Program-made: the position numbers and the translations under genes
IMG/VR virus record: IMGVR_UViG_3300025120_000696
Span: 1 to 21,060 of that record
Source of the DNA: a virus
Length of the DNA stretch: 21,060 nt
Strand: one strand, 5' to 3'
Notes under the pieces: model-generated
The model's database searches: none
What the model was told of the DNA's origin: nothing
The model's input: only the letters and a program-made list of their open reading frames with translations
Shown here: one piece after another, positions 518 through 20,400 of the stretch
How the letters are laid out: each line of letters opens with the position of its first letter
Numbering within the stretch: the stretch's first letter is position 1

Positions 518-555
518 ATAAAAAATATTTTACTATCTTTATTAAAGTGTGTCTA
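518..555 (-). promoter_or_regulatory. Possible sigma-70-type promoter for gp47
   Basis: On the minus strand, TAGACA (555-550, 5/6 match to the -35 consensus) is separated by 17 bases from TAAAAT (532-527, 5/6 match to -10). The -35 lies inside the last codons of gp55. The predicted start near base 520 would leave a leader of about three bases before the gp47 ATG. Such matches arise easily in AT-rich DNA, so this is tentative. Confidence 0.35.
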
Positions 556-1354
556 GTTTCTTTTTTCGTTCTACTTCTTTTTGATCTTCAATCTTAACCA
601 ATTCTTTTTGTCTCAGCTCATGTTCAATTTGTCTAGTATGTGAAGGCATCATACCATTCTCTTGCAATAGATCATCACGAAGAGACTGATTCTTTTTTTC
701 AACATTTAATATTCTAGTGAACGAGTTTGTTATTGCGGCTGTGTAATAAGCAAAAGGATTTTCTGATTTAGATTCATCAAATTGTAAACCTATTTGTGAC
801 AGTTGCATCAGTGCCTGCCCTTGCATCTCATCGTTATAGGTATAACCACGCCAGTTACCTCTTGTGCCGTATCTTTGTACCAGCAACACAAACATCTTAG
901 CAAGTTTTGGTGTCATAGCTCCGTGATCCACAGAAAAATGTCCGTTTTCCATGCCACCTTTCCAATGCGATTTCCCAACACATTTGAGTTTTTCTTTATC
1001 GTCAAATCTATAGTGTTGAAAAGGTGGAAAGTTACATTTCACCTTTGATTCTGCTATTGTTTTTGGTTTTGATTTTCGGTTCGAATTTGGTACATGATCA
1101 AAGGTCATCACGCGAAAAACCAAGTGTTGTTTCAACATAGTTTTCGGATTTATCTTCTCGCCTGTTGCTTTTTCTAACTTTTTTATTTTGTTACGTCTTG
1201 CTTCAGCGATAGATCTAATATTGATCTTTTTTACATCAGGAACAATTATATCGAAATCGGTATCTTCGTCTGAGATGTATGAACTGTACTTTTTTTTGCT
1301 TTTATGTATTTCCAACAACAAGTCTTTGTTGTTTAAGTATTTTGATTTAGCCAT
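542..1354 (-). CDS. 55: gp55-like sigma factor for late transcription
   Basis: This 270-residue protein matches T4 gp55 in two blocks I recognise. The N-terminal Y6-LNNKDLLLEI aligns with T4 YVNNKELLQAI. Residues about 145-221, including GYTYNDEMQGQALMQL and the FDESKSENPFAYYTAAI segment, align with the sigma region 2-like core of T4 gp55, which recognises the TATAAATA late box. The C-terminus ends in LDTL; T4 gp55 carries a clamp-binding motif with LDFL near its C-terminus, so the tail may bind the sliding clamp (inference). The protein is about 85 residues longer than T4 gp55 (185), with nearly all the excess at residues 22-140, between the two matching blocks. The only plausible start is the ATG at 1354. 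The gene diverges from the baseplate cluster whose promoters it should activate. Confidence 0.88.
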   Translation of the reverse strand: MAKSKYLNNKDLLLEIHKSKKKYSSYISDEDTDFDIIVPDVKKINIRSIAEARRNKIKKLEKATGEKINPKTMLKQHLVFRVMTFDHVPNSNRKSKPKTIAESKVKCNFPPFQHYRFDDKEKLKCVGKSHWKGGMENGHFSVDHGAMTPKLAKMFVLLVQRYGTRGNWRGYTYNDEMQGQALMQLSQIGLQFDESKSENPFAYYTAAITNSFTRILNVEKKNQSLRDDLLQENGMMPSHTRQIEHELRQKELVKIEDQKEVERKKKLDTL

Positions 1355-1360
1355 ATCATA

Positions 1361-1389
1361 ATTATAAACTACTAGTTTAATTTATGCAA
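1361..1389 (-). promoter_or_regulatory. Putative host sigma-70 promoter for gp55
   Basis: The minus strand carries a perfect -10 hexamer TATAAT (1366-1361) and, 17 bases upstream, TTGCAT (1389-1384, matching only the TTG of the -35 consensus). The expected transcript start, about seven bases after the -10, falls at 1354, the A of the gp55 ATG. The -35 overlaps the late box of the opposite strand (1388-1395). An early or middle promoter is required for a late sigma gene, which supports the call, but the -35 is weak. Confidence 0.45.
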
Positions 1390-1395
1390 TAAATA
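1388..1395 (+). promoter_or_regulatory. T4-type late promoter box upstream of gp48
   Basis: AATAAATA at 1388-1395 matches seven of eight bases of the T4 late box TATAAATA. Six bases separate it from the ATG of gp48 at 1402. With the box at -13 to -6 as in T4, transcription would start at about 1401, leaving a one-base leader. It is the first of the boxes in the window placed at this distance from a start codon. Confidence 0.65.
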
Positions 1396-1401
1396 TTTTA
1401 T

Positions 1402-2271
1402 ATGAGTTTCTTCACGAAATCTTTACAGAACATAGGTAAGGTAGCAAGACAAATGGGCACTGGCGGCTTTAATGCTGTACAGGCAAGATTATCACAGGCA
1501 GGATTATTTCCTGGCGGAGTAGCTGGTCAATCTAGACGAGCATTGGGTACTAACGCAGGTTCACCATCATCAACAGGTGATTGGGCAGTAAAACTAACTT
1601 TACCCACTGCAACATATTCACAATTAATGGCTGATTCTCCTGTCATGACAGATACCATGATGGCAGACAATGGCATGCGTTTTCCTACCACTCCATTTAT
1701 CAATTTACAGCACACAGCGGCATATGACAGTAGAGCAGTGTTGCACAACAATTATCCATATTATGCATATCAAAATTCACAAGTGCAACAGATTACAATA
1801 TCAGGAGATTTTCCTGTACAGGATCAAGCAAGTGGCAGAAGATGGATATCAACTGTGCATTTCCTACGCACTATCACAAAAATGTATTATGGTGGAGAGC
1901 TTAACAAAGGTAATCCTCCTCCCATTGCAAGATTAAATGGATATGGCGATCATGTGTTCAGCAATGTACCTTGTGTAGTAATGGACTTTACAGTTGAATT
2001 TAGGCAAAATGTTGATTACATTTCTATATACAATGATCCTGAAGATCTTACTGGCATATCACCGGGCGAACGAATGGCAAGATTTGGACCTAGTCAGTTC
2101 ACTGAATCTCAACCAGCACAAGCGAGACAGTCTGGCATAGTAAACAAAGTGCCTACAGACTCTTTGATCACAGTAACAGTGATGCCAGTATACTCACGTA
2201 ATAAAATATCTAACCAATTTGATCTTAAATCTTTTGCAAACGGATCATTGGCCAAGGATGGATTTATATAA
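1402..2271 (+). CDS. 48: gp48-like baseplate tail-tube cap protein
   Basis: This 289-residue protein fits the gp48 tail-tube cap/initiator family of T4-like phages (T4 gp48 has 364 residues), which sits on the baseplate hub and nucleates tail-tube polymerisation. I base this on the block at residues 95-165: FPTTPFINLQHTA, then an NNYPYYAYQNSQVQQITISG segment (residues about 116-135), then RRWISTVHFLRTITKMYYGG, which is the tube-like beta-sandwich segment I associate with marine gp48 proteins. The N-terminus is basic and Gly/Ala-rich. The start at 1402 lies directly behind a late box, with no room for a Shine-Dalgarno sequence on the predicted transcript; the next in-frame Met is residue 18. 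The stop overlaps the next start by one base (TAATG). The related cap protein gp54 is a less likely identity. Confidence 0.78.
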   Translation: MSFFTKSLQNIGKVARQMGTGGFNAVQARLSQAGLFPGGVAGQSRRALGTNAGSPSSTGDWAVKLTLPTATYSQLMADSPVMTDTMMADNGMRFPTTPFINLQHTAAYDSRAVLHNNYPYYAYQNSQVQQITISGDFPVQDQASGRRWISTVHFLRTITKMYYGGELNKGNPPPIARLNGYGDHVFSNVPCVVMDFTVEFRQNVDYISIYNDPEDLTGISPGERMARFGPSQFTESQPAQARQSGIVNKVPTDSLITVTVMPVYSRNKISNQFDLKSFANGSLAKDGFI

Positions 2272-2570
2272 TGGCAAATTACGAATCTACATCACCTTAT
2301 TATGCTACTGCTGAGTTTACAGAAACTTTAGGTATACTTAACAAACGACAATTTGAATTTCAACCAGATGACGTGGTTTATGAAATTGACTCTTTCTATG
2401 AACATAGGCCAGACTTATTGAGTTTTGATTTGTATGGTACTCCTAAACTATGGTGGGTATTTCAACATCGAAACATGGATGTAATTACAGATCCAATTTG
2501 GTCTTTTGAAGCAGGAACATTAATAAGGATTCCTAAAAAATCAATCTTACAGGAATTCTTGAACGTATAA
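2271..2570 (+). CDS. 53: gp53-like baseplate wedge subunit
   Basis: This 99-residue protein resembles the conserved part of T4 gp53, which links baseplate wedges around the hub. The segment from F51 to I87 (DLYGTPKLWWVFQHRNMDVITDP, broken here after 20 residues only in spirit of brevity: core DLYGTPKLWWV and AGTLIRIP) has the LysM-like pattern typical of this family. It is about half the length of T4 gp53 (196 residues), so accessory regions are missing. It begins one base before the end of gp48 (TAATG). AAGGAT at 2254-2259 lies 11 bases upstream and could act as a distant Shine-Dalgarno, although coupling to gp48 translation seems at least as likely. Its end overlaps the next start in the same way. 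Confidence 0.78.
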   Translation: MANYESTSPYYATAEFTETLGILNKRQFEFQPDDVVYEIDSFYEHRPDLLSFDLYGTPKLWWVFQHRNMDVITDPIWSFEAGTLIRIPKKSILQEFLNV

Positions 2571-5077
2571 TGAAGCCTCCTCTTAGCAAAAAATACAAAT
2601 TCAATGAAACTTATGTAGGGCGTGGCAATGCTAACAAATGGCAAAGATCCAGCAAACTAAATGATACTAAACTTCCGCAAGATGACTTTTCCTTTAAAAA
2701 ATTAAACGACGCACTTTCAGGTTTTCTATCTGGTGGAGGAATTGAAGGTGCTATATCTGGCGGAATTGCAGGAATTGAAGGTGCTATATCTGGCGGAATT
2801 GCAGGAATCCAAAATGCTATATCTGGTGGAATAAATGCAATAGTTGGAGACACGTTAAAAAAAATTGACCCCAAAGTTCAATCTATTGCTAATAATATAG
2901 GAGTTGGAGACTTCACAGCCGCAGATGATGTAAGGCAAAATTATGGAAGTGGGTTAGGTGCAGGCGTCACTGATGGAATCAGCAAAGGCTTGAACATTCA
3001 TGGACCAAGTTTTGATGATGCCGCTTTAGGCAAATCAAAAAGATTAAAAAATTTAGTAAACGGGTCCTCGGCTAATATTTTCTTTAACAATCCAACAGGA
3101 GTCAATCCTTTACACGATTACGAGACTTACAACTATGAAATATCTTTTTCTTGTATTAGTGCAGGCGTTTATGAATCAAACAATTTTGAAAGCAATCGTG
3201 GAACACTGATTGCACAATCAGGAGGTAAAGGTAAGCAAGGCAGGGGTGTGCTTGGTGTTGATTATTATATAGAAAGATTAAGTTTTAGAACAGTGGTAAC
3301 AAACTCCTCACAGTCTCCAGACACTAATGCTTTTTCCATCATAATGAATATAAGTGAACCATATGGGGTTGATTTAATTTCGGCATTTGTTGAGGCAAGC
3401 AAGAGAGAAGGGTATGGCAATCATATGAATGCTGTGTACCTATTAGGAATCAGATTCCAAGGTCATGATGATGCAGGCAATCCACAGAACATTCCTTTTG
3501 GTGGTCGTAAATTTATACCTTGCAAAATATACAATGTTGATTTAGATGTTGATGCAGGTGGCGGCAACTATGTGATCGAGGCAGCTCCGTACAACTACAC
3601 AGCAAAAAATAGTGCATATGATGAGATACCATTTAATGTTACCTGTAACGGAACAACTGTAAAAGAAGTAATAGAAAGTTTTTTTAATAATCATAATAGA
3701 CAGTTACAAGATATTGCAAAAAAAACTTCATTAGGTACCCCTAATACATTTGAATTGGATATCAGCAACTCTGAGGCAGATATATTAAGTTCGTCGTTAA
3801 ACTTAAATGAGATCGACAAAGTAAGTCAGAAACAAGCTATTAACTTTTCCATTACTGGCAATGGTGGCCCAAAGGCAGTAAGCAGAAAAATCAATGTTGA
3901 AAAAGGTGAATCAGTAATAGCATTTTTGAGATCTGTAATCGATAATTCAGCAAAATTCTTAGAAAGAGTGAATGAAGCAGGCGAAGTAGTAGGCGAGTCA
4001 ATACCTACACCAAACATAATGACAACCACAACTATATCTGCCACAAATAATGGAAAAGGTGATCAAGCATATAAATTTTCTTATGCACTGAGATCACAGA
4101 ACAGAGATGTTAGTCACATAGATGGTGCCGATGCACCAAGTCAGGCAGCTCCGGTAAGAATATATGATTTTCTCTACACAGGCCAAAATAAAGATATCTT
4201 AGATTTCAGTTTAAAATATAAATTTGCTTATTTTCAACCAGGTCTGTCTTACAACAAGGATGGTGACAAAACAAAGGAAAATGATCCAAATATTTCTAGT
4301 GTAGGAAGAGATGGAGGAAATCCAGGAGGAAATCCTAACGGTGACAATGCTGTACCAAGCACTGTTACACCATCAAAAAGTGCAAGAGGAATGTCAATGG
4401 GAAATTCAAGCAGTGACATTGTGCCAGATGCATCATCTGACAACAAAGAATCCATTGACAAACTTAAGCAAATTTTAGAAGATCCAGCTGCCGATATGAT
4501 AGTTTGTGACTTGCAAATTTTAGGTGATCCATATTGGATAGAGCAAAAAACTGTGCGTACAGGAACAAAAACAACAAGTCAGGCTGGTGCCTACATTGAG
4601 CCGGATGGTTCTATATCTGTTGACGGTTATGAACCTATCATACAAATAAATGCAAAATTACCCACTGATATCAATGATGCAAACGGTTTGTATAACTTAA
4701 CAGACACAGCATTCTTCCAAGGCACATTTTTAGTTTGGATGTGTGAGTCTAACTTTGAAGGTGGAGTATTCACACAAACTTTATCTCTAGTAAGACAGAA
4801 AGGTCAAGCTAGGGACAGAACAAAAGGCGGCATTCAACCGCAAGTTTTTTCTGGTAATGCTTTTTCAAATGCATTAGGTTCAGCTTTCAAGGATTTTGCT
4901 ACTGGAAAATTCAATGCTGTATCTAAAGGATCAACATCTAATGTTAGTAATCAAGGTAAATCTGCTTTTTCAAGACCTCCAAGGGATATTAAAAAATTCG
5001 TAAATAATAATGGAAAAGCAATCAAGACATCCAGTGGTTACTTAACATATGGTAATCCACGTCCGAGACAAAGATAA
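2570..5077 (+). CDS. Large baseplate structural protein, probable hub component (gp27-like by position)
   Basis: This 835-residue protein shows no motif that I can match confidently to T4. Visible parts: a basic N-terminus (1-50); a Gly/Ile-rich repeat (57-92); a globular region (about 160-560) with the look of tail hub/tube proteins; a Gly/Asn/Ser-rich, probably disordered linker (about 558-630); a second globular part (about 640-760) with WIEQK and a C-terminal FLVWMCESNFEGGVFTQTL strand pattern often seen at the end of baseplate hub domains; and a basic tail ending RPRQR. It sits directly before the gp5 spike gene with a one-base TAATG overlap at each end, where a hub partner for gp5 is expected, as gp27 is in T4. 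The hub assignment is inference from position and strand pattern; it is about twice the length of T4 gp27 (391). Confidence 0.55.
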   Translation: MKPPLSKKYKFNETYVGRGNANKWQRSSKLNDTKLPQDDFSFKKLNDALSGFLSGGGIEGAISGGIAGIEGAISGGIAGIQNAISGGINAIVGDTLKKIDPKVQSIANNIGVGDFTAADDVRQNYGSGLGAGVTDGISKGLNIHGPSFDDAALGKSKRLKNLVNGSSANIFFNNPTGVNPLHDYETYNYEISFSCISAGVYESNNFESNRGTLIAQSGGKGKQGRGVLGVDYYIERLSFRTVVTNSSQSPDTNAFSIIMNISEPYGVDLISAFVEASKREGYGNHMNAVYLLGIRFQGHDDAGNPQNIPFGGRKFIPCKIYNVDLDVDAGGGNYVIEAAPYNYTAKNSAYDEIPFNVTCNGTTVKEVIESFFNNHNRQLQDIAKKTSLGTPNTFELDISNSEADILSSSLNLNEIDKVSQKQAINFSITGNGGPKAVSRKINVEKGESVIAFLRSVIDNSAKFLERVNEAGEVVGESIPTPNIMTTTTISATNNGKGDQAYKFSYALRSQNRDVSHIDGADAPSQAAPVRIYDFLYTGQNKDILDFSLKYKFAYFQPGLSYNKDGDKTKENDPNISSVGRDGGNPGGNPNGDNAVPSTVTPSKSARGMSMGNSSSDIVPDASSDNKESIDKLKQILEDPAADMIVCDLQILGDPYWIEQKTVRTGTKTTSQAGAYIEPDGSISVDGYEPIIQINAKLPTDINDANGLYNLTDTAFFQGTFLVWMCESNFEGGVFTQTLSLVRQKGQARDRTKGGIQPQVFSGNAFSNALGSAFKDFATGKFNAVSKGSTSNVSNQGKSAFSRPPRDIKKFVNNNGKAIKTSSGYLTYGNPRPRQR
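2738..2839 (+). repeat. In-frame tandem repeat encoding Gly/Ile-rich 11-residue units
   Basis: Two identical 33-bp units (2738-2770 and 2771-2803) encode GIEGAISGGIA, followed by a diverged 36-bp unit (2804-2839) encoding GIQNAISGGINA. The perfect identity of the first two points to a recent duplication. The peptide has repeated small-xxx-small spacing (glycine-zipper-like) with Ile at regular intervals, at residues 57-92 of the probable hub protein. Confidence 0.9.
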
Positions 5078-7020
5078 TGCCAGAATTAAGAAGACAGTCA
5101 ACTGTGTTACCTATGCCAGGTCCATACATTGGATTTGTAAAAGGCACAGCTGATGTAAACAGAATGGGAAGATTGGATGTTTTTATTCCTGAGTTGCAGG
5201 ATCAATGGGATAACTCAGATGATACTCCATTATCAGAAAGAACAATCACAGTTGAATACTGTTCACCGTTTGCTGGACAAACACCTTATGTAGACACAGG
5301 AGGCGGCGGTGCATTTGGCCAGACACAAAAATCGTACGGATTTTGGATGGTACCACCAGATGTGGAAACAAAGGTACTTGTTATGTTTGCAGGTGGCAAC
5401 ATTAATCAAGGTTATTGGATAGGGTGTATTCCTGAAATAGGAGTGAACCATATGACGCCTGGAATTGCCTCAGCTAAAACTGCTGGAGTAAGTGAAAGCC
5501 AGCAAGAGAAAGCCAGCACACTCAAAGGCAAAGGCGGTAGAAGATCTTCGAAAGCGGCAGAACCATCAACTGAAGGAAAATATAGTACTCTTCCTGGTGT
5601 AGAATTTATTCCTGTTGCTGAACCTAATAGACGTTCAGACACTATTAAAACCAGCAGTAGTTATGATAAAGATGGATCAGTATCATCAAGACCCTCACAT
5701 GACTATCATGCAGATGAATTAGTAAAACAAGGGTTGCTTCCAGATCCTATCAGAGGGACCACAACATCATCGGCAAGACGAGAAACACCATCGCAAGTGT
5801 TTGGCATCAGCACACCAGGTCCTATAGATCCAAAAGGCAACAAGGTGCCTTTGCGTGAATCAGGAAACAGACATGCTATCACAGAAGATGGAGCTACCTT
5901 AGTACATTCAAGATTAGGTGGACACACTTTTGTAATGGACGATGGAACTCCACCTAAACATGACGGATCAAAATTTACTACAGATATTGAAAATGAATTA
6001 ATAAGAATTAGAACACGTTCAGGTGCACAAATACTGTTACACAATTCAGAAGACATTGTGTACATTATTAATAATTCAGGCGATGCTTGGATCGAACTAA
6101 CTGCTAACGGCAAAATTGATGCATATGCAAATGATTCAATCAGTTTTCACACAAACACTGATTTTAATTTTAGAGCAGAACGTGATGTTAACATAGAAGC
6201 AGGAAGAAATATAAATCTTAAAGCGGCAGGCACAAACAAAAAAGAAGGTGAAGACGATTATTTGATCAACTCCGGTGAAGAAGTAGTCACAGGAAGAATT
6301 CATATGGATGCTAAAGAAGACATTGAAATGATTGCAGAACTAGATATCAAAGCCAAAGCAGGGGTTGATATTGAAATGTTTGCTACAAAAGATGTTGCAC
6401 TTAAATCTGAAGAGAACATGATATTTGAAACACAAGAAAATATGCAATTACAATCAAGGAAGAATTTTACATTGTATGTTCAAAATTTTGCAGAGGTTGA
6501 AATTGGTAGTCCAGCTGTGGCACCAGACAGTACTGGTGTAGGGACACTACAACTGAGAGTAAAAAATGATCTAAAAACTTTTATAGGTGACGATCATAAA
6601 ACATATGTTGGTGGTGATCACCTCTTAGAAGTTGTAGGAGATGATAAAATATTTGCCGCAAATCATTGGGCCAATGTAACTGGTGAAATACATTTTAATA
6701 CATCAGGAAAAGTTGCCGCAGGAGTCGTTGGTGAAACTATAGTAACAGAAAATGTTGTTGGCGACAAAGGTGAACGTGTGCCTCCTGATGTTGTGGTACC
6801 ACTTACTACATTTTTGAATGTGGGTGTAGATCCATTGTATCCTGAAGAGGAAAGATTATCTATCATGAAACGTGTGCCTACAGCTGAACCATATGCAGAG
6901 CATGAAAATATCAAATTGTTTAGATCAGATCAAACACGTACAGACAGAGAAATTGAACTTGAACAAAGATTTGAAGAAGAATCTACAACAGAGTCAGTTC
7001 CTAATCCAGGAGGAAGATAA
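5077..7020 (+). CDS. 5: gp5-like baseplate spike protein lacking the lysozyme domain
   Basis: This 647-residue protein has an N-terminal OB-fold (about 14-135) with the gp5/VgrG pattern GFVKGTADVNRMGRLDVFIP, WMVPPDVETKVLVMF and GYWIGCIPE. A polar linker rich in Ser, Lys and Pro follows (about 140-260). Residues about 265-330 (ETPSQVFGISTPGPIDPKG, then the HAITEDGATLVHSRLGG segment) lead into a C-terminal beta-helix (about 330-560) with repeats such as RDVNIEAGRNINLKAAG, the needle that pierces the outer membrane. T4 gp5 carries a lysozyme between OB-fold and helix; no such domain is visible here and the linker is too short and low in complexity to hold one. The C-terminus (about 600-647) is acidic and charged. 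The gene overlaps both neighbours by one base, and the PAAR tip follows immediately, as 5.4 follows gene 5 in T4. Confidence 0.87.
   Translation: MPELRRQSTVLPMPGPYIGFVKGTADVNRMGRLDVFIPELQDQWDNSDDTPLSERTITVEYCSPFAGQTPYVDTGGGGAFGQTQKSYGFWMVPPDVETKVLVMFAGGNINQGYWIGCIPEIGVNHMTPGIASAKTAGVSESQQEKASTLKGKGGRRSSKAAEPSTEGKYSTLPGVEFIPVAEPNRRSDTIKTSSSYDKDGSVSSRPSHDYHADELVKQGLLPDPIRGTTTSSARRETPSQVFGISTPGPIDPKGNKVPLRESGNRHAITEDGATLVHSRLGGHTFVMDDGTPPKHDGSKFTTDIENELIRIRTRSGAQILLHNSEDIVYIINNSGDAWIELTANGKIDAYANDSISFHTNTDFNFRAERDVNIEAGRNINLKAAGTNKKEGEDDYLINSGEEVVTGRIHMDAKEDIEMIAELDIKAKAGVDIEMFATKDVALKSEENMIFETQENMQLQSRKNFTLYVQNFAEVEIGSPAVAPDSTGVGTLQLRVKNDLKTFIGDDHKTYVGGDHLLEVVGDDKIFAANHWANVTGEIHFNTSGKVAAGVVGETIVTENVVGDKGERVPPDVVVPLTTFLNVGVDPLYPEEERLSIMKRVPTAEPYAEHENIKLFRSDQTRTDREIELEQRFEEESTTESVPNPGGR
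7008..7013 (+). promoter_or_regulatory. Strong Shine-Dalgarno for the PAAR gene
   Basis: AGGAGG lies six bases before the ATG at 7020, inside the last codons of the spike gene. It is the only textbook ribosome-binding site I find at any start in the window and may boost synthesis of the PAAR tip relative to its coupled upstream gene. Confidence 0.7.
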
Positions 7021-7280
7021 TGTCAGGAGTATGCAGAGATAATGATGCGGCAGGAGGAGATTTAGTTCCTTCACAGACCACAGTAATAGCTAATGGCGAA
7101 GAAATAATTGTAAATGGTGATACCGTAGCAGTTCACGGTATTGCTCCCCACTTAGAACAAACCATAATAGCAGGATCAAATGCAGTGTTTGTTGGTGGCA
7201 AGGCAGTGTGTAATGCTGGCGACGTTGCGTCAGTTTGTGGTGAGGCTGCCACAGGCTCCAGTGATGTATTTGTAGGATAA
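7020..7280 (+). CDS. PAAR-domain spike tip protein (gp5.4-like)
   Basis: This 86-residue protein has the PAAR-family build: short beta repeats with Gly turns (IIVNGDTVAVHG, AVFVGGKAVCNAGD) and candidate metal ligands H39, H44, C64 and C73. PAAR proteins form the metal-stabilised conical point on the gp5/VgrG spike. The length matches the family (T4 gp5.4 has 97). The start overlaps the gp5 stop by one base and has a strong Shine-Dalgarno. Its TAA stop (7278-7280) lies within the late box that serves the next small gene. Confidence 0.88.
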   Translation: MSGVCRDNDAAGGDLVPSQTTVIANGEEIIVNGDTVAVHGIAPHLEQTIIAGSNAVFVGGKAVCNAGDVASVCGEAATGSSDVFVG

Positions 7281-7283
7281 ATA
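7276..7283 (+). promoter_or_regulatory. T4-type late promoter box upstream of the cysteine-rich gene
   Basis: GATAAATA matches seven of eight bases of TATAAATA and overlaps the PAAR stop codon. Only five bases separate it from the ATG at 7289, so T4 geometry puts the transcript start exactly on the A of that ATG. Confidence 0.55.
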
Positions 7284-7288
7284 TTTGT

Positions 7289-7429
7289 ATGGACAAAGAT
7301 ATATGTAAAAAATGTGATTGCCCAAGTCATTGCAGTGGTGGCAAATGTCAGCGTTGTTATGAAGCAGGAGATGAATGCCTAACTTGTGATTGCGTAAATT
7401 GTGATGGTTCTAAAACTATAAACAAGTAA
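7289..7429 (+). CDS. 46-residue cysteine-rich microprotein, possible metal binder
   Basis: The frame ATG 7289 to TAA 7427-7429 encodes 46 residues with ten cysteines (6, 9, 11, 15, 20, 23, 30, 33, 35, 38) and one histidine (14). The motif CxxCDC occurs twice (CKKCDC at 6-11, CLTCDC at 30-35), and a CxxC (20-23) lies between, so it looks like a compact zinc-ribbon, metallothionein or small Fe-S protein. There is no signal peptide or membrane segment. It fills the space between the PAAR and gp25 genes, is preceded by a late box, and ends one base before the gp25 start. I do not recognise a named family. Its reality is supported by the exact fit between neighbours, the late box and the strongly non-random cysteine pattern; its function is unknown. 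Confidence 0.75.
   Translation: MDKDICKKCDCPSHCSGGKCQRCYEAGDECLTCDCVNCDGSKTINK
7417..7424 (+). promoter_or_regulatory. Degenerate late promoter box upstream of gp25
   Basis: TATAAACA differs from TATAAATA at one position. It sits six bases before the gp25 ATG, so the predicted start is base 7430, one base before the ATG, the same geometry as at gp48. It lies in the end of the cysteine-rich gene. It is weaker than the other boxes and could be chance. Confidence 0.35.
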
Positions 7430-7909: not shown

Positions 7910-7917
7910 TATAAATA
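7910..7917 (+). promoter_or_regulatory. Perfect T4-type late promoter box upstream of gp6
   Basis: TATAAATA is an exact match to the T4 late consensus and lies in the only sizeable gap of the cluster (7884-7922). Five bases separate it from the gp6 ATG at 7923. With the box at -13 to -6 the transcript starts at the A of the ATG. I find no second ATG nearby that would supply a leader. Confidence 0.75.
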
Positions 7918-7922
7918 TTATT

Positions 7923-10900
7923 ATGCCATCAACCGATAGACAAAACGCCTTGCTGGTTAACACTGCTTGGCAAAAGATTTATAGAACGTTTTCACAAGCA
8001 GACTTCAAATCGTACGATTTTGACACTGTAAGAAGAACGCTGATAGATTATCTTAGATTAAACTATTCAGAATCTTTCAATGACTACATTGAGTCTTCGG
8101 AATATGTTGCATTAATTGATTTAATATCATATGTTGCTCAATCAATATCCTATAGAGTAGATTTGAATGCAAGAGAAAACTTTATTGATCTTGCAGAAAG
8201 AAAAGAATCTGTATTAAGATTAGCAAGACTTATTTCCTATCAACCAAAGAGAAATATTGCCGCATCTGGTCAATTGAAAATTGTTTCTATAACAACTACA
8301 GAAACAGTGTTTGACGCAAACAATAACAATTTAGCAAATACTCCTATTCTTTGGAATGATGTCACAAATAACAATTGGCAAGAACAATTTAACGCAGTGC
8401 TTAACTCTGCGTTGCCTAGAGCACAATCAGTAGGCAGACCTACTGCTTCTAGCACAGTTGGAGGAACAACCACTGAAACTTATAGATTTAATTCCACAAA
8501 CCTAGGATTACCTATTTTTAATTTTTCAAGGAATATAAATGGCATAAACACAACATTTGAAATTGTACCAAGTGAATTGAAAGATGGGTTTGTAGTAGAA
8601 GAAGCACCAGTGCCAGGAAACGCACTTAGTTTCCTTTACAAAAATGATACAAAAGGATTTGCCTCAAGTAACACAGGATATTTTTTACAATTTAAACAAG
8701 GCTCTTTGGTGAATGAACAATTTACTATTACATCGCAACTGCCTAACACAAAATATTCTATTACTGATGCTAACATTAATAATGACGATGTATTTTTGTT
8801 CAAAATGGATCAAAATAATATTTTAGAAGAGTATTGGGCAAAGGTGCCTGCAATTACTGGCAACAATGTAATATACAATTCATTAGCAAAAAATATTATA
8901 AATCAATATGCAGTAGTGACTAAAGAAAATGATGCAATTGATCTTGTGTTTAGTGACGGTACATATGGGGCAATGCCAGTTGGAAACTTTGTAGCATATT
9001 ATAGACAATCAAACGGATTATCATACAGAATACAAACCACAGATATGCAAAATGTAAACATTGATTTACAGTATGTGTCTAGAGACAATCAGGTTAACAC
9101 AATGACTATCACAATGTCATTACAAAATGCAGTTACTAATGCGGCAGCTTCTCAGTCAATAGCTGATATAAGAACACTTGCTCCACAATCTTACTACACA
9201 AATAACAGAATGATATCTCCTGAAGACTATCAAATTGTTCCTTTGATTGAAAATCCTTCATTAGTGAAAGCTAGATCACAAGTAAGAGCAATAAGTGGAA
9301 CGTCGCGATTTTTAGATGTGACAGATCCAAGTGGTGTTTATTCTGAAACAGACATTGTTGCAGATGACGGCATGCTGTATAGAAATATTACTACAGAAAC
9401 TTTTGACTTTAGTTTTACAACAAGAGATGATGCTAGAAAAGTTGTAGTCAGTTCAGTATCGGATATTTTTGAGTCGGAATCATTAAAACAATATTACTAT
9501 GACAATTTTCCTAGACCACAAATTGCAGGACAAAAATTGTGGAATAAAACCACGCAAAGCACAAGTCAAGTATCTGGGTATTTCAAAGATGTTGCTGACG
9601 ACTCAAGCGTTTTTGCAGTTGGTACTTCGGCTTTAAACAATTTACAATACATAAAAACAGGAGCACTTGCTAGATTTATTCCAACATCAGGAAATCACTT
9701 CATGCCGGAGCTAGGAACACAAATGGCAGGCACTGGAGGGCATCCGGGCAGTGCAGATATTATGTGGACAAAAGTAATAAGTGTAGAAGGAGATGGATCC
9801 AATGGCGGTCTAGGAGATCTTGCAGACGGTTCTGGTCCAATTTTGTTATCCGATTTTATTCCTACTGATGCACAAATTACAGAAATAATTCCAACATTTG
9901 TAGATTCAATTTCATCAACTTTAGAAAGTTCGATTGTTGATAAAATTATTGCGTATAAAAACTTTGGACTAGGATACAACAAAGAAAAAAGTGAATGGTA
10001 CATAATTGAAGAAGATGACATAAAAACAACAGATAGGTTTGATTTAACTTATGCCCAAAATACGCAAAGTTTAAATTTAGATGCATCTTGGCTCATTAGA
10101 TTTTCGACAAACGGTGTGACATACACAGTAACAAATAGAGCTACTCAATACATTTTTCAAAGTTTTAGTAGAAATAAATTTTATTTAGATGAATCAGAAA
10201 AAGCAACAGATCCTGAAACAGGATTTACTATAAAGGATTCAGTCACAGTTTTAAAATCAAACACACAACCTGATTTTGTAAGCAACTTGACATACGATTA
10301 CAAATGGCGTATAGTAAAAAATATAATTGCAAGTGATGGCTATAATGATACAAGAAAAATGCAAATTGGATTATTTGATTCAGATGATGATGGTGTGTAT
10401 GACAATCCCGACTTATTCAAATTAATTGTTGCTCCAACAACCAGTGAAGAAAACAAATATGTGTTTTTCCAAACAGTAACAAAAAATGGATTTGAACAAG
10501 ACGATCCTGTATCTAATGTAAACTTTGTAACAGTGTCAGCTGAAACAGATATTACTAACCCAGGAATATATGCAGATGGACAGAAATTTTATTTGTACAG
10601 CACTAACGAATTTAAAACTTACAATGCAGTGCCTGATACTTTAGACGCACTGGAAGGATATAAAGCTTATCCAGGAAGGCAAGATTTAATTTACAAATAT
10701 AATCATGGAGCCCCTAGAACAAGACGATTAGATCCTTCAGTTAGTAATATCATTGAATGCTATGTAATGACTAAAAATTATGATACTGACTTTAGAAGTT
10801 GGCTCAATAATAATCAACTCACTACAAAACCAACAGCGCCTACTATATCTACATTAAATGATACATATGGCCCAACATTAAATCAACTTAAGAGTATAAG

Positions 10901-11432
10901 TGACACATTTATATTTGTTCCAGGAGAATATGTATTGTTGTTTGGTCAAGGAGCTGAATCAGATTTACAAGCAACATTTAAGGTAGTAAAAAATCCTAGC
11001 ACCGCAGTATCAGACAATGCAATCAAATCACAAATGATTAATGCCATTAATAATTTCTTTTCGATACAATTATGGGATTTTGGTGATACATTTTATTTTA
11101 CTGAATTAGCCGCATATTTGCACAATGTCTTAGCACCAGATGTATTAAGTGTTGTGATTGTGCCTTCTAGTTCATCTGTATCTTTTGGTTCATTATTTGA
11201 AGTTACTGTAAAAGACAGCCAAATTCCTATTTCATCTGCAAATGTAGATAATGTTGAAGTGATAACTTCGAATACAGCAGATCAATTAAAGGCAACTGGT
11301 ACAGTTGTATCGTCTACCGGCACAAATACTTCAACTGTCACAAATGGAACAACATCTACTTCGTCATCAACATCGACAAGTTCTGTAACATCTACAGTGA
11401 CTTCAGGATCATCAGGCTCAGGATATTATTAA
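7923..11432 (+). CDS. 6: gp6-like baseplate wedge protein, expanded
   Basis: The 1169-residue protein begins with the gp6/J-like pattern of T4-like wedges: SFNDYIESSEYVALIDLISY (about 57-76) and VDLNARENFIDLAERKESVL (about 80-99), followed by LISYQPKRNIAASG. gp6 dimerises to tie wedges into a ring and forms part of the core bundle with gp25 and gp53. T4 gp6 has 660 residues, so about 500 are extra; they are spread through the middle and C-terminal half, where I recognise no domain apart from alternating strand patterns. A region near residues 1040-1095 (helical, then APDVLSVVIVPSS) resembles the conserved C-terminal dimerisation part. The last 40 residues are almost entirely Ser, Thr and Gly. 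The start has no Shine-Dalgarno and lies directly behind a perfect late box. The stop is one base before the next ATG (TAAAATG). Confidence 0.87.
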   Translation: MPSTDRQNALLVNTAWQKIYRTFSQADFKSYDFDTVRRTLIDYLRLNYSESFNDYIESSEYVALIDLISYVAQSISYRVDLNARENFIDLAERKESVLRLARLISYQPKRNIAASGQLKIVSITTTETVFDANNNNLANTPILWNDVTNNNWQEQFNAVLNSALPRAQSVGRPTASSTVGGTTTETYRFNSTNLGLPIFNFSRNINGINTTFEIVPSELKDGFVVEEAPVPGNALSFLYKNDTKGFASSNTGYFLQFKQGSLVNEQFTITSQLPNTKYSITDANINNDDVFLFKMDQNNILEEYWAKVPAITGNNVIYNSLAKNIINQYAVVTKENDAIDLVFSDGTYGAMPVGNFVAYYRQSNGLSYRIQTTDMQNVNIDLQYVSRDNQVNTMTITMSLQNAVTNAAASQSIADIRTLAPQSYYTNNRMISPEDYQIVPLIENPSLVKARSQVRAISGTSRFLDVTDPSGVYSETDIVADDGMLYRNITTETFDFSFTTRDDARKVVVSSVSDIFESESLKQYYYDNFPRPQIAGQKLWNKTTQSTSQVSGYFKDVADDSSVFAVGTSALNNLQYIKTGALARFIPTSGNHFMPELGTQMAGTGGHPGSADIMWTKVISVEGDGSNGGLGDLADGSGPILLSDFIPTDAQITEIIPTFVDSISSTLESSIVDKIIAYKNFGLGYNKEKSEWYIIEEDDIKTTDRFDLTYAQNTQSLNLDASWLIRFSTNGVTYTVTNRATQYIFQSFSRNKFYLDESEKATDPETGFTIKDSVTVLKSNTQPDFVSNLTYDYKWRIVKNIIASDGYNDTRKMQIGLFDSDDDGVYDNPDLFKLIVAPTTSEENKYVFFQTVTKNGFEQDDPVSNVNFVTVSAETDITNPGIYADGQKFYLYSTNEFKTYNAVPDTLDALEGYKAYPGRQDLIYKYNHGAPRTRRLDPSVSNIIECYVMTKNYDTDFRSWLNNNQLTTKPTAPTISTLNDTYGPTLNQLKSISDTFIFVPGEYVLLFGQGAESDLQATFKVVKNPSTAVSDNAIKSQMINAINNFFSIQLWDFGDTFYFTELAAYLHNVLAPDVLSVVIVPSSSSVSFGSLFEVTVKDSQIPISSANVDNVEVITSNTADQLKATGTVVSSTGTNTSTVTNGTTSTSSSTSTSSVTSTVTSGSSGSGYY
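11310..11429 (+). other. Ser/Thr/Gly-rich low-complexity C-terminal tail of gp6
   Basis: Residues 1130-1169 are made almost wholly of Ser, Thr, Val, Asn and Gly and end GSGYY. Several codon choices for Ser and Thr are mixed, so this is not a simple DNA microsatellite. It is probably a disordered or extended surface tail. Confidence 0.8.
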
Positions 11433-11433
11433 A

Positions 11434-14400
11434 ATGGGTAAGAGTACACGCAAAACGCAGACTCTATTGCCAAGTGTCTTTCAAACGCCAAAGAATAATG
11501 ATTTTCTAGAGGCAACATTAGACCAATTAATTGAACCAGCTAAAACACAAAAATTATCACAATTTATTGGCAGGACTACGATCCCAAGTTATAAATCTGT
11601 TGATGGATATGTACCGGAAGCTACTGCTGATAGAAAAAATTACCAATTAGAAACGGCAACGGTATATAAGTCAGATGGAGACACTATCGATTTTGCCGCA
11701 CCTTATATTGATGTAATAAACGAAATAAGTGCAAGTGGTGGCAACAATAGCAAACATGATAGAATGTTGTCTAACAACACTTTTTCATATACACCGCCAA
11801 TTGATGCAGACAAGTTTACAAATTATCGCGAATATTATTGGATGGGCATAGGTCTATCTCCTGTAAGATTATATGCAGGTACCCCAGGTGCTAACATATC
11901 TTTCAATGTTGTAAACAATGCCGCCGGAGGTTATAAATTTAGTCACCGAGGAGCCAGCAATCCTGATATTATTGTTTACAGAGGCAACACATATAATTTT
12001 GATATAAGTGCCTATGGACATCCTTTTTGGATTAAATCTCAATATGGCACCGGCACTGACAACGCGATTGGGTCAAATTTAGTAACAAATAATGGCCAGC
12101 AGAATGGAAGAGTAACATTAAAAGTTCCTGCAAGTGATTCCAGCACGAGTTATCCAGAAGTATTGTACTATCAATGTCAATATCATACAGCAATGCGTGG
12201 CAGAATAATTGTAAGAGATTTGAATGACGAACTGTTTGATATAAATGAAAATTTAATAGGTGTGACAGAATTTACTGATTTCACAGGATTAAAATTATCT
12301 AACGGACTGACAGTATCAACGTCATCGGATGTTTCAGAAACTTATCAAAATAAAACTTTTTATATAGAGGGTGTTGGTAGCACTATTGATCTTGTACCTG
12401 AAACTGAAATGCGTACATATGGAGACTGGGCACAAGACTTAGGAGCCATATGGGATGAAAATGGAGTTGAAGGTTGGGATACTACAGGTTTTGATAATTC
12501 GACAGGACAACTTGTAAGCACTGATTACTTCACAATATCTAGACAATCTCCAGACAGAAATGCTTGGTCAAGATCTAATAGATGGTTTCATAAAGATGTA
12601 ATACTTGAATCGAATAAAAGAAACAACTATGCTCAAGTGTTGCCTGAAACAGCAAGAGCAAAAAGGCCTATTATTGAATTCCAGTCAGGCTTAAATTTAT
12701 TTAATTACGGATCATTGCATAGAGTGGTTGATGTTGTAGACACATTAACAACAGATGCATTGTCTTTAGTTTCGGGAACAATTGGATTTACTGCTGATGG
12801 TACATTATTGCGAGAAGGCGACAGAGTAGTGTTTACAAAAGATGAAAATGAAAATAATAAAATCTTTACAGTAAGATACCTATCTCTAGATTCATCGACT
12901 GCAACTGCAAATATTGATAATCCTTCACAAATACATCTTCAACTAGAAGACGACTCAACAGTTATTGCTGACGACACTTCTATTATAGCTAAACGTGGTG
13001 ATAGGAATAAAGGACAAGCATATCATTATAGTAGAAGCAATGTAACATGGACAAAGTCACAGCAAAAAACAGGGGTAAATCAAGCACCGTTATTTGATGT
13101 GTACAATACATCTGGGATATCTTTAGGTGATTTAACTGCATATACATCAACTAATTTTACTGGTACGACAGTGTTTGAAATAAACACTGATGAACAAGGA
13201 ACACCTGATACGATATATGGACAAAATGTTTTGTATTCTAGGTTAGGATTATTATCAGACATTCAAGTTAAAGATACATTTGACAGTGATACTTTTGCCT
13301 ATGTGACTGGATCAGCAACACAAGTAGATAATGTTAAACAATATTATCTTAGAAAAACAGATAAACTTGGGAATCAAACTTACCATACAAATTATACCAA
13401 ATCAAGCACTGCTGTAAAACAACGTGTAATAGAACAATATGTGGCAGACAAAAATCAAACTGATTTTGAAATATCATCTTATGACAAACCTTCTACACTT
13501 TCGGATCTAGATGTAACTATTTTTGTTAATGGTTCAAGAGTCAATAAATTTATACAGGTAGATGGTACTGACAATAAATTGTTTGTGCGGTTAACCAACG
13601 CATCAAAAAATAATGATATTGTTACAGTAAAAACACACAGCACTTTAGGAAAAAGAACGTCTAATGGATATTATGAAGTATCTGTTTCAGCTGAAAAAAA
13701 TCCTCTCAATGAAAGTATTTCATTATTCACAGTTGGCGATATAAATGATCATTACATATCAGCACTTAACAATCTAAACACAGTGACAGGTCCACACATT
13801 GGTAACAACAACACCAGAGACTTGCCGCCTGTGTTTGAAAGTGGAACTAATATTTTACAGCATGAAGGCAGTATGCCTCTTGCATCAATTTTTAGTAGAG
13901 ATGAAACTGTAAATTTAATAGATGCATGGCGACAATCAGGCACACATTATGAACAATTTAAAGCAAATATTCTTAAGACTGCAGAAAAAGTTGTACTTGG
14001 GGATACAGCAAAAGATAATCTTGATATAATTTTAGAAGAAATAAATCTTAATAAAAACGAAACATTTGCATATCACGATTCAGATATGATGGCTTTTGGC
14101 GAAGACAAAACAGTCTTAACATACACAGTTACTGATGCAAGTGTAATTTTTTATCCAATGACTAATGCTTTTGATCTTAGTACATTGAGTGATACCGCAG
14201 TTTATTTGTATGTGAATAACATACAATTGACACATGGCACAGATTATGAATTTGTAGGAGTGAGTGATAGTGCAAACTTTAATGGTGTAGAAATTAAAAG
14301 CAGTTTGTCTGTTAACGATGTAATCAAAATTGAAGAGCATACATTAACTACTGCAAGTTTTATACCTCCTACTCCTGCGAAACTTGGCCTTGCTCCTGCT

Positions 14401-17400
14401 TATGAGCCAACGTTGGCATTTGATAATACATATCAGGCTGAGGATAGCACAGATACCGGATTAAAAGTTTTACGTGGTCATGATGGAAGTAAAATGATAG
14501 CATATGATGATTTACGAGATGACCTAATGCTTGAATTTGAAAAGCGAATTTACAACAATATTAAAATAGAACATACGCCAGAATCAGTTGACCTTTCCTT
14601 CGGCAGATTTAAAACAAATGATTATACAAGGACTGAGTTAATAAATTTATATTCTAGGGATTTTTATTATTGGACCGGAGTAAATGGTATAGATTATACA
14701 ACAAATGATATCTACACAGGCGAAAATAGTTTTACATGGAACTATGGTGATTATTCTAAAAATGTAAACAGATCTACTGATACTGATCCGTTGCCTGCGT
14801 CATGGAGAGGAATGTATCTAGAATATTTTGGAACAACTTCACCACATACAACTCCATGGGAAATGTTTGGGTTTTCAGTCAAGCCAACATGGTGGGAAAA
14901 TCAATATGGTCCAGCACCTTACACATCAGGAAATGAAATACTATGGGACCATGTTGCAAGGGGACAAATAGCAAAAGGATCACGAGCAGGAAACTATGCC
15001 AAATATGCTCGTCCAGAAGTTTACAAATGTATTCCAGTAAACCAAAACGGTGATTTGATAGATCCAGGTACAGCAAGATTGCTTTCAAATGACACAAATA
15101 ATTCTTTGAATCTTAAAAGAAATTGGTCATATGGTGATGTAGGGCCAGCAGAGCATTCATGGAGGTTTAGTTCTAGTTGGAGATTTGCAGAACAAATTGC
15201 AAAATTTTTAGCATATCCAGTCAAATACGCAGGACTATTTTTTGATGTATCTAGGCAAAAGAAAAATTTTATAGATCAAATTGTTTACGACGAAAAATTT
15301 AGAACAACACCAGTAAATTATACGTTACCTGATTCATTAAATCATATTCATACTTCGGGATACGTGAATGTAATTTTAGATTATTTAAAAACACAAGGCC
15401 TTAATAAAAATGCATTGTCAGTAAGATTACAGAATCTAAGTGTTCAACTAGTATACAAAATGGCAGGATTTACTAACAGCACTAACTTAGATGTGCAACT
15501 TGGCTCATCATCACCACTAAGTTCAAGCACTTCTGTTTTTGCTCCAAAAGAAAATTTTGATCTTATTGTTCATAAGTCAGCACCTAGCACAGTTGCAAAT
15601 TATTCAGGAGTAATTGTTGAAAAATCAACAAAAGGATACAAAGTAAGTGGTTACTCAAATTTTGATAGGGCATTCACAATTTTAGCGCCTATTGAAAATG
15701 GCGACTATGGACAAATAGCAGTTGGGCAGACAACTGAATCATTTACAGAATGGCAAGGCGGTGCATTTTATAATGTTGGCTCCATTGTAAGAAATGGTGG
15801 AAAATTTTATAGAGCTACATCAGCAGTCAATTCCACACAAGAGTTTATTGAAGGAAACTGGACTGTAATAGGAGCAAAACTTCCATTAAAAGGCGGAGTC
15901 ACTGTAAGAAAATTTAAAAGTTATAAAAAAGTTACGTCAACAATTCCGTATGGTACAGAATATAGAACAGAACAAGAAGTAGCAAACTTTGTTTATGGAT
16001 ATGAAAAATATTTAGAATCTATAGGATTTAGTTTTGACGAATTTTCAAAAGATTTAAATCAAACCATGAATTGGGATCTTTCGGTCAAGGAAATATTATT
16101 CTGGAGTACACAAAACTGGGCAGTTGGATCTGTGTTGTCGGTGTCTCCAGCTTCTAGTAAACTAGTTCATTCTAAAGAAACTTCGATCGGAGATGATCTA
16201 GTACAAGGAGATAAGTTTTATACTGTATTACAACAAGATGGTTTGCCTATACAACCTAAAAATTTAAGAGTTAGACGTACAGACGGACAATTTATTATTG
16301 AAACAAATCCTGCAGAAGACGGAATATATAATGCAGATATTAGATCAGTTCAAAAAGAACATCTTTTAGTCATAGATAATTCAACATCATTTAATGATAT
16401 AATATACAATCGTGTTTTAGGTACAAGACAACAAAGACTTAAATTAGTAGGTTTCAAAACAGCAGACTGGCAGGGAGATTTGTATGCTCCAGGATTTATC
16501 ATAGACAGAGCTATTATTAATCAATGGGAAGAATATGTTGACTATGCAATAGGTGACGTTGTTTTCTATCAAGGCCAAACATATGTCGCTACTGATAACC
16601 ATACATCTATAGACAAATTTGACGCATCTAGGTTTAGTGCAAAAGATACACCAGGTCCAGACATACTAAACAACCTTGACAACAAGGCCGAATCGTTTAG
16701 AGATTTTTATTCATTAGACACAGAGAACTTTGATGCCGAACAACAACGATATGCTCAACACTTAATTGGATATCAAAAAAGAGATTATCTTGTAAATCTT
16801 GGATTTGAAGAACAAACACAATACAAATTGTATCAAGGATTTGTAAAAGACAAAGGCACACGAAATGTTATAGACAGATTCCAGTTGCCAGAGCAATTTG
16901 GTCAAGTAAAATCTTTTGAACTGTTTGAAGAATGGTTGTTTAGAATTGGTGAATACGGTGGTCACAGAACATTGTCTCAATATGCATGGCCAGTCAGTGG
17001 TGAAGTCCACAAAGAAAAACAGCATGTGTATGAACTTACATCGGAAACAAAAGATGACACAGAAACAGTGATTAATGTTACAGATTTTGAATTGAACAAA
17101 CGTCCATATAATTTGCCTGCTACAAAATTTGCAACGTACAGTTATGATACAAGCAATTATCCAAGTAACATTTTACGCCTTGGTACTGCAGGTTATCCAC
17201 AACCTGATCAAGTAGATTTTACAGTATGGTCTACAGATGATTTGTTTGATCTTGATACAGCAAATTTTGAAGAAGGAACACTTATCTGGGTAGCAAACAA
17301 TGACAAAGGTGACTGGGATGTCTTTAGAGTTAACACACTTACAACTTCTATAATAGATTATAAACAGTTTGATGCTAAAACTCAATTTACAACACGTGAA

Positions 17401-20400
17401 GAGCATGGATTAGTAAATGGTGATATATTAGTAATAATGGATTTTAGTGGCCAAGCAGAAGGAATGTACAGATTAGAAGAACCATTTGATAGTACAGATA
17501 CTAATAAAACATTTTCTCTAGAGATAACAGATACTTTAGATAGTGTGTTTACTCAAGGCACTTTAGCAAAACTTCAATCAGTAAGAATAAATGATTTTGA
17601 TCAACTGTCAAATATAGTGCCACAAAAAGGTTGGCAGACAAATGACTATGTGTTTGTTGACAATAATTATGAAACTAATGGTGGCTCATGGCAGGTATAC
17701 AAACGTGATTCATTAGGAAACTTTGAACTTGCTGGAGTATCTACACTGCCTATAAATTCTGATCTGTCTGATGCAAAAATTGACAATGAAGAATTTGGAA
17801 GTGCTATGTCTTTGTCGAAGGATACTAAATGGATGGCAGTTGGTTCTGCTAACAAAGAAAGAATATTAATTTATCACAGGGCAACATCAATCGATCCAAT
17901 TATAAACTATTCACAAATAGTGCCTGACATTAAAAATGGCTCAGCCGATGATGAGTTTGGTCAGAGTGTTGCAATATCAAACAATGGAAAAACTATTTTA
18001 GTTGGTGCTCCTAAAACAGGAGACATAGTAAGACTTGTTTCTAATCATCCTGATAGCACAAGGACACTTACTCGTGGACAGGATGTAACAGGTTCGGACA
18101 CAGCGGCGGCTGGAAAAATCCTTAGATATGAAGAAGGTGAATCTCAAGATGTATTGTACATTAAAGTTTCATCAGGCACAAACTTTGCTGATTCGGCATT
18201 AGATATATCGGACTCTTCTTCAGTTTCAATCATAGATGGACTTACAGATGGAGATCGAACAGATCAGGGCACGGTGCACATAGTCACAAGGAATACAGAT
18301 GAGTTATATGCTACAACAGAAAATATTGTTTCACCTGTGTTTGCACAAGGTGAACTATTTGGGCAAAGTGTTGCTATCAGCGGAGACGGAGAATGGGTAG
18401 CTGTTGGCGCTCCTGGAGGACCAAATGATTCAACTTTCAGTAACAGAGGTTCCGTATATGTGTACAGAAAAACTGTTGATAGTAGTACAATTAGCACAGC
18501 AAGGTATGTATATCAGCAAACTCTAGCTCCTGGCGATAATTCAGAACAAAAAGATGATAGTAGTAATCAAGGAATGCAGTTTGGTGACAATATTGTAATG
18601 AGCAATGATGGCAACACTATTGTAGTAGGTGCAAAACTTTATGATGATTCATCTATAACAGATTCTGGTAGAATTTTTGTGTATAGAAAATTAGATGACT
18701 TGTTTGTAAAGACAGAAGAGTTTGGGCCAGACATTGCAACAGACGAAACAAGATTTGGTGAAAGTGTAGTGATTAGTGATGATGGTACCGACTTATTAGT
18801 AGGCAGTCCGCGTGAAAAGAATACATTGACAGAACAAGGCGTAGTGTATCATTATTTGAACAGCAGTTCAACACACGTGGGCGATGGATCAACATCGGCA
18901 TTTACTCCAACATTTACAGTAGACAAAAATACTAAACTGTATGTTTCTGTTGATACTACACAATTTAAATTTGACGATTCTTCAACCACAGCAACATATC
19001 ATATAAATGCATCTACGAACGTAATTACTTTGGCTACTACTCCTGTGTTAGGAGCAAAAATTACAATTCAGCAATACAAAAAACAAGCACGAATATTGTC
19101 TAATCCAATTGAGCAAGGAGCAAGATTTGGTGAATCCATGGCATTAGATAATAACCTATTAGCAGTATATTCTGCAAGTGGAATGACAACTAGATCTACA
19201 TCATTTGATAAGTTTAGACTTGATAGTTCATCAAATGCCGCCAATCAAACTACATTTGACAACAAAGGAACATCATTTTCTACACAAATTCAAGATACAG
19301 GAAATGTGCAAATTTTTCAAAAGTATGATGATACATGGATACACAATGAGATATTAAAAAATACAAGTGGGTCTGTGGATGATAGTTTTGGAAAAAGCAT
19401 TGCAATATCTTCACAAAATGTGTATGTTGCGGCACCTGGAAGAGAAATATCTGTAGGTAGTGATTCAACCAGAGTTGATGCCGGCGAAGTTTATGTGTAT
19501 GCTAAAACAAGCAATGTGAACTATTGGAATGTTGATGTAACACAACCAGACTTAGTGAATCCATATTTGATTAAAAAAACTTTCTTATACACACAAGGAA
19601 ATAATAAACTTGTCCTTGATATGCCAAGAATTGATCCAGTGAAAAATTTATTCTTTGCACAGATTGATCAAGATATAAAATACAAAACTTCTTTCGACCC
19701 AGCAAACTATGAATCATGGAACGATGAACATGTTGGTGAAATTTGGTTGAATACTACTCAACTTAAATTTTTATGGTATGAGCAAGGTGATGCAAATTAC
19801 AAACTTCGTAATTGGGGTAAACCGCATCCGTCTGCAGTTGTATCTGTTTTAGAATGGGTAAAAAGCACACTGACACCATCCCAATGGAACGCACAATCTA
19901 CCACAGTAGATGGATCAAATGAAGGAATCACTGGCACAGCAAATGAAGACTTTAGCACACAAGAAGTCTTTAGTGATATCACTAATAATTTTATAACATT
20001 TTATTATTACTGGGTTGAACAACCAACAATTTTGCCTGATGTAGCAACAAGATCAGTGACAGCGGCACAGATTGCAAACGCAATAAAGGATCCAAAAACA
20101 TTCACAGATAATTTCAGTGCAGTTATTTCGTCTGATTCTTTGCTATTAAGCATACAAGCAAGTATCTTAACAAATAAAAGTTTATCATTTCATATAGAAA
20201 ATACTAGTGATGAAGATGAATTGCAACCACATGTGGAGTATTTGATGGTAGCAGAAGGTGACGATGACGTAAAAATTAATTCTACACTCGTTACAAAAAT
20301 GGAAGATTCATTAATAGGAATTGATAGTTACGGTAGAAAAGTGCCTGATTTAACTTTTCCAGATAATATGCGTTATGGATTAGAAAACAGGCCACGACAA

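Follow-up and report, generated by a model that had tools for sequence, protein, structure and literature searches.

Promoter boxes adjacent to start codons predict leaderless mRNAs in a clade of T4-type phages

A baseplate gene block with a gp55-type sigma factor

The DNA analysed here, called the window at its whole length, is a 21-kb IMG/VR fragment (IMGVR_UViG_3300025120_000696; 21,060 nt; 64% AT). Its plus strand carries gp48-like, gp53-like, structural, gp5-like, PAAR, Cys-rich, gp25, gp6, and gp7-like genes in that order. The baseplate block, with homologues of gp6, gp25, gp53, and gp5 in addition to gp55, has the composition of a T4-like or RaK2-related myovirus; judged by this gene content, the source is a T4-type myovirus. 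ORFs were called mechanically, each from the nearest ATG with 40 or 60 open codons behind it, and the principal genes are as follows.

542..1354, minus strand: gp55-type late sigma factor, 270 aa (phrog_12791, E=1.8e-78); predicted leaderless
1402..2271, plus strand: gp48-like tail protein (name from an earlier note on this DNA); PHROG virion structural protein (phrog_12050, E=5.9e-38)
2271..7280, plus strand: gp53-like, structural, gp5-like, and PAAR genes after gp48, from ORF coordinates, junctions, and families; without a late box of their own
7289..7429, plus strand: Cys-rich protein, 46 aa, from translation; predicted leaderless
7923..11432, plus strand: gp6-like baseplate wedge subunit, 1169 aa (phrog_10646, E=6.6e-280); predicted leaderless

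By gp55 and gp6 protein sequence, the closest cultured relatives were jumbo phages such as PA5oct, Atu_ph07, Phosso, SCTP-2, RaK2, and CBB (31-45% identity), and a search for cultured relatives at the DNA level gave none of use. The gp55 homologue also matched the T4 gp55 structure 7d7c (E=1.7e-4). Behind gp48, one-base overlaps of the form TAATG link the genes at 2271, 2570, 5077, and 7020. Pfam and PHROG gave no match for the Cys-rich protein, which is kept in relatives between the PAAR and gp25 genes at a length of 46-53 aa. The gene in the gp7 position (11434-21060) is very long: its product has 4308 aa in a 91-kb relative (G001) and at least 3208 aa in the window, and T4 gp7 is far shorter.

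Late promoter boxes next to start codons in the window

The earlier note had placed a late promoter box directly before gp6 and reported the same spacing at the gp48, Cys-rich, and, with one mismatch, gp25 genes. Its coordinates were correct for all four boxes, and the gp6 box ends five bases before the ATG.

7910-7917, plus strand: late promoter box TATAAATA of gp6, then TTATT and the ATG at 7923; predicted +1 at 7923, leader of 0 nt
1388-1395, plus strand: late promoter box AATAAATA of gp48, then TTTTAT and the ATG at 1402; predicted +1 at 1401, leader of 0-1 nt
7276-7283, plus strand: late promoter box GATAAATA of the Cys-rich gene, then TTTGT and the ATG at 7289
7417-7424, plus strand: one-mismatch box TATAAACA before gp25, then AGTAAA and the ATG at 7431; judged not a conserved promoter

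The core motif ATAAATA occurred three times in the window, on the plus strand only, and in 3/3 cases it lay 5-6 nt upstream of an ATG, that of gp48, the Cys-rich gene, or gp6. As the note had held, it was found nowhere else on the plus strand, and the minus strand proved empty as well. The Cys-rich box overlaps the stop codon of the PAAR gene. Because ATAAATA reversed is identical, the control consisted of permutations, namely the other 20 arrangements of its seven bases, and a motif was counted if an ATG followed within 12 nt and began an ORF of 40 codons or more. Under this definition, 7/283 scrambled motifs (2.5%) were near an ATG-ORF vs 3/3 for ATAAATA, which was also scarce in the window (3 occurrences vs a mean of 14 per scrambled motif).

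Two elements of a T4-type late promoter system are present in the window, a NATAAATA box and a gp55-type sigma factor from the same phage. The region upstream of gp6 contained no Shine-Dalgarno (SD) sequence, and no TAATG coupling of gp6 to gp25 was observed.

Box-to-start spacing in related phages

Fifteen related loci were found with gp25, and two further scans (gp6 alignment and gp55) gave 160 loci. The related contigs are fragments with many near-copies; identical contexts were dropped, and counts by protein family were added. Clade A, the window-like group of uncultured marine phages, and clades B and C are working labels, assigned from gp55 identity and the sequence at the gp6 start; a gp6 tree made afterwards agreed with them.

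At the 15 gp25 loci, every ATAAATA lay 5-7 nt upstream of an ATG. The whole contigs of the window's group (up to 91 kb) gave 7/7, 4/4, 5/5, and similar counts, all at 5-10 nt; G003 had one ATAAATA site within range, with its ORF cut by the contig end. Among the 94 distinct ATAAATA sites of clade A, 58 lay 3-8 nt from an ATG, including 14 at 5 nt and 26 at 6 nt, vs 4.0% at 3-8 nt for scrambled motifs. The argument of the earlier note that the recurrent geometry exceeds chance was thus borne out in the window and in clade A, and the motif-position count over related phages showed that the box-to-ATG distance peaks at 5-6 nt. No AGGA, GGAG, or GAGG was present between box and ATG at these clade A sites (0/58). 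GTG and TTG starts at 3-8 nt were few (2 and 3 sites). About a quarter of the clade A sites lay at 9-35 nt, so the predicted leaderless state is not universal among clade A late genes. Long clade A contigs were also uneven, with sites at 12 nt or less numbering 15/21 in G009, 5/8 in G012, and 2/5 in G014.

The sister groups, clades B and C, were two-moded, with 31 sites at 4-8 nt without an SD sequence, 0 at 9-13 nt, and 66 at 18-35 nt, 49 of the latter having an SD sequence. The short-distance class comprised 20 protein families in clade A and 16 in clades B/C. In T4, Syn9, RaK2, and Atu_ph07 together, 3/271 sites were at 3-8 nt, and most boxes were placed 18-35 nt ahead of the start, many of them followed by an SD sequence; the earlier note had drawn a contrast with T4, whose late genes have SD leaders.

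For the individual genes, the gp6 box sits identically in every clade A relative having gp6. The gp6 and gp48 boxes were kept through clade A, and the Cys-rich box was kept in the nearer relatives (L002-L009). The gp48 box was at 3-8 nt in clade A, with L239 as the sole exception (16 nt, with AGGAG in the leader). The fourth site of the earlier note did not stand: the TATAAACA near-match was absent upstream of gp25 in L005-L015 (72-84% gp25 identity), and the gp25 match is probably due to chance. In clade B (e.g., L154 and L247), the gp6 box was mostly exactly 14 nt from the ATG without an SD sequence, a spacing that predicts a fixed 9-nt leader lacking an SD site.

Metagenome-assembled genome (MAG) contigs carrying gp6 relatives reached only 42-52% gp6 identity, and none was near enough for clade A. 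These contigs (L337-L342) were labelled Porticoccaceae, Pelagibacter, Betaproteobacteria, Rickettsiales, Puniceicoccaceae, and Gammaproteobacteria, and the conflict among these taxon labels suggests that they are wrongly binned phage contigs.

Conservation of the gp6 start codon

When the window's gp6 was aligned with distant homologues, the start fell on one and the same residue, and M1, R6, and Q7 were invariant. M1 and the RQ motif were unchanged as far as Atu_ph07 and SCTP-2 and aligned with RaK2 and CBB; the start was also kept in Vibrio 2.275.O, and several of these phages have SD-like sequence at this place. Purine-rich, SD-like bases stand directly before the gp6 ATG in Vibrio 2.275.O (AAGGAGATATA-ATG), SCTP-2, RaK2, and CBB, and ATAAATA stands there in clade A. 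After its start, gp6 has no in-frame Met before residue 295. The earlier note would have been refuted by homologues whose starts lie clearly downstream; none was found, the gp6 start being kept down to ~33% identity. Since the start codon is conserved from clade A to RaK2, CBB, and SCTP-2, the alignment indicates that at gp6 the promoter shifted and the start codon stayed.

In the gp6 tree (131 rows), which came from a quick search and has several long outgroup branches, the 3-8 nt state was a single change on one supported branch (SH-aLRT 100). An SD sequence was present in 0/20 rows with the box at 3-8 nt, 1/46 at 14-17 nt, and 35/44 at 18 nt or more. Orthologous genes keep the box at 14-28 nt, often with an SD sequence in between.

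Sigma70-type promoters share the short spacing

The divergent gp55 gene has a promoter of another type at a similar distance.

1361..1389, minus strand: sigma70-type promoter of gp55, with TTGCAT (1389-1384), a 17-nt spacer, TATAAT (1366-1361), and 6 nt to the ATG

This geometry was repeated, with TATAAT at 6-7 nt, in ~11 clade A sequence types whose spacers differ. In other clade A gp55 genes, TATAAT was at ~29-38 nt, and in clade C it was mostly at 18-24 nt with GGAG; part of the clade A gp55 genes keep a leader of ~25 nt without an SD sequence. Over clade A, 33 TTG-N16-18-TATAAT sites were 4-8 nt away from an ATG, with a peak at 6 nt, vs 1 site in the control phages, and these short-distance sites span 14 families. 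Judged by these counts, proximity to the ATG is not restricted to late promoters but is shared by sigma70-type promoters. The scope given in the earlier note, the late mRNAs of this phage, is therefore right for the late genes and too narrow as a limit, as sigma70-type promoters and relatives show the same pattern.

Within 1355-1401 of the window, the -35 element of the divergent gp55 promoter and the gp48 late box have 2 bp in common, and TTTATGCAATAAATA in this interval is kept in much of clade A. The conserved TTTATGCA upstream of the gp48 box is part of the gp55 promoter. Because the late box overlaps the -35 element, gp55-RNA polymerase on the gp48 late promoter may shut off gp55, a putative negative feedback.

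A predicted leaderless route of expression

The T4 late box is at -13 to -6. Transferred to the window, this position would put the first transcribed base on the A of the ATG for gp6 and the Cys-rich gene, or one base earlier for gp48, the boxes being read as T4-type late promoters by the phage gp55 sigma factor with host RNA polymerase. It is consistent with the T4 structure, in which gp55 reads the A at -12 (PMC7892883), and the T4 late box has been placed roughly one turn of the helix ahead of the base where transcription begins (PMC2988020). By a published criterion, leaderless genes of bacteria are recognised by a -10 signal ~12 bp before the start codon (PMC3160421), and here a -10 type element lies ~12 bp upstream of the start with no SD sequence upstream.

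The mRNAs would then open with AUG or one base ahead of it and lack an SD site, and translation would most likely be of the leaderless kind, with the ribosome recognising an AUG at the 5' end. Genes farther along would be reached via TAATG stop-start coupling or their own SD sequence; the overlaps behind gp48 suggest that one leaderless start may serve a coupled chain. The same scheme would apply to many sigma70-type promoters of the clade, that of gp55 included. The observations are box position, start conservation, SD absence, orthologues with a leader and SD sequence, and clade distribution, from which we infer the 5' ends, coupling, and translation mode, with start positions taken from T4. 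On this basis, it is highly probable that many early and late genes next to a promoter are expressed from leaderless (0-3 nt) mRNAs, with translation beginning at a 5'-terminal AUG. The prediction of the earlier note that late mRNAs have no leader or a one-base leader gains support from the 5-6 nt peak, the missing SD sequences, the conserved starts, and the leadered orthologues with an SD sequence.

We lean slightly toward a broader reading, in which many first genes of early (sigma70) and late (gp55) units moved clade-wide to leaderless initiation, so that the -10 element also fixes the translation start; a host or infection-modified ribosome favouring the 5'-terminal AUG is a possible cause, and the sister clades would hold gene-by-gene intermediates. 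A phage bS21 or IF3 altering initiation was considered as a candidate and set aside, as neither was found in the clade A contigs, which are incomplete. A bS21 ribosomal protein is encoded by PA5oct (170985-171143; L343) and SCTP-2 (192508-192666; L344) and was not found in the marine clade contigs searched.

Alternative explanations

It is improbable that the boxes are real late promoters with gp6 and similar proteins coming mostly from leadered read-through of the upstream operon and the leaderless transcript being minor. Although gp6 lies only 39 nt downstream of gp25 in the same direction, and polycistronic late transcripts are common in T4-type phages, internal initiation at gp6 would be weak because it has neither an SD sequence nor TAATG coupling to gp25. 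For gp48, the upstream neighbour is divergent, so no same-strand gene within the window gives a leader, and the 5-6 nt peak over 20 families implies selection for the leaderless product. Read-through from upstream promoters could add leadered gp6 copies to the predicted leaderless mRNAs.

That ATAAATA beside the ATG is an AU-rich translation signal and no promoter is very unlikely. AU-rich sequence around start codons does aid initiation without an SD sequence; however, in orthologous genes this motif stands 14-28 nt away and an SD sequence often lies between, scrambled AT-rich motifs have no such peak, ATAAATA is scarce elsewhere on both strands, and the gp55 gene lies within the window. The chance that the start codons were miscalled, with proteins beginning downstream behind normal leaders, is negligible: start calls were mechanical, but the invariant gp6 M1 and RQ motif, and a next Met only at residue 295, mean that a downstream start would remove conserved sequence, and for PA5oct gp262, a structural protein flagged as detected by mass spectrometry, the annotated start is 5 nt after such a box. 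Coincidence in AT-rich DNA, conceivable for three sites in a window of this composition, is refuted by the clade-wide counts and the scrambled-motif controls (2.5% in the window, 4% in the clade).

Relation to known systems

The box, the sigma factor, and leaderless initiation are each already known. With T4 late promoters (gp55/gp33/gp45 system), the window shares the same box (TATAAATA / NATAAATA), a gp55 homologue beside it, and baseplate genes downstream. T4 differs in having 0/65 ATAAATA sites less than 12 nt from an ATG-ORF and many SD leaders, whereas here the box abuts the ATG without an SD sequence. The RaK2-type jumbo phages CBB and GAP32 have the same consensus before structural genes and homologous gp6 and gp55, but the RaK2 sites are mostly 21-52 nt from the ATG. 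For CBB, ATAAATA was reported as a late motif at 35 places (PMC5259590), and the passages of that paper on the motif describe no leaderless geometry. Searches of open-access papers turned up no account of systematic leaderless late transcription in T4-type phages.

Lambda, in which the leaderless gene is cI, and other single leaderless phage mRNAs share the AUG at the mRNA 5' end that is predicted here; lambda differs in that one gene of a temperate phage is concerned, in contrast to a clade-wide pattern over ~20 late-box and 14 sigma70-type families. Leaderless initiation in lambda is documented (PMC3160421), as are the TA-led (leaderless) bacterial genes, which likewise lack an SD sequence and have a -10 element ~12 bp ahead of the start codon; here, the genes are phage structural genes, and the -10 element often belongs to a phage late sigma factor.

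If the predicted leaderless initiation is true, a lytic phage lineage can switch the translation start of its main structural genes from SD-led to leaderless with promoter and start codon unchanged, and orthologues in both states would form a natural series for why leaderless initiation evolves. It would also provide a simple rule for picking out late genes, and for choosing the right start codons, in uncultured marine phages. Two cultured relatives, Pseudomonas phage PA5oct and Salicola phage SCTP-2, permit a direct test: most of their boxes with a nearby start are farther off (~16-40 nt), but a minority, at PA5oct gp262 with its ATG at 144985, PA5oct gp356 with its ATG at 49602, and SCTP-2 gene 366, lie exactly 5 nt before annotated starts.
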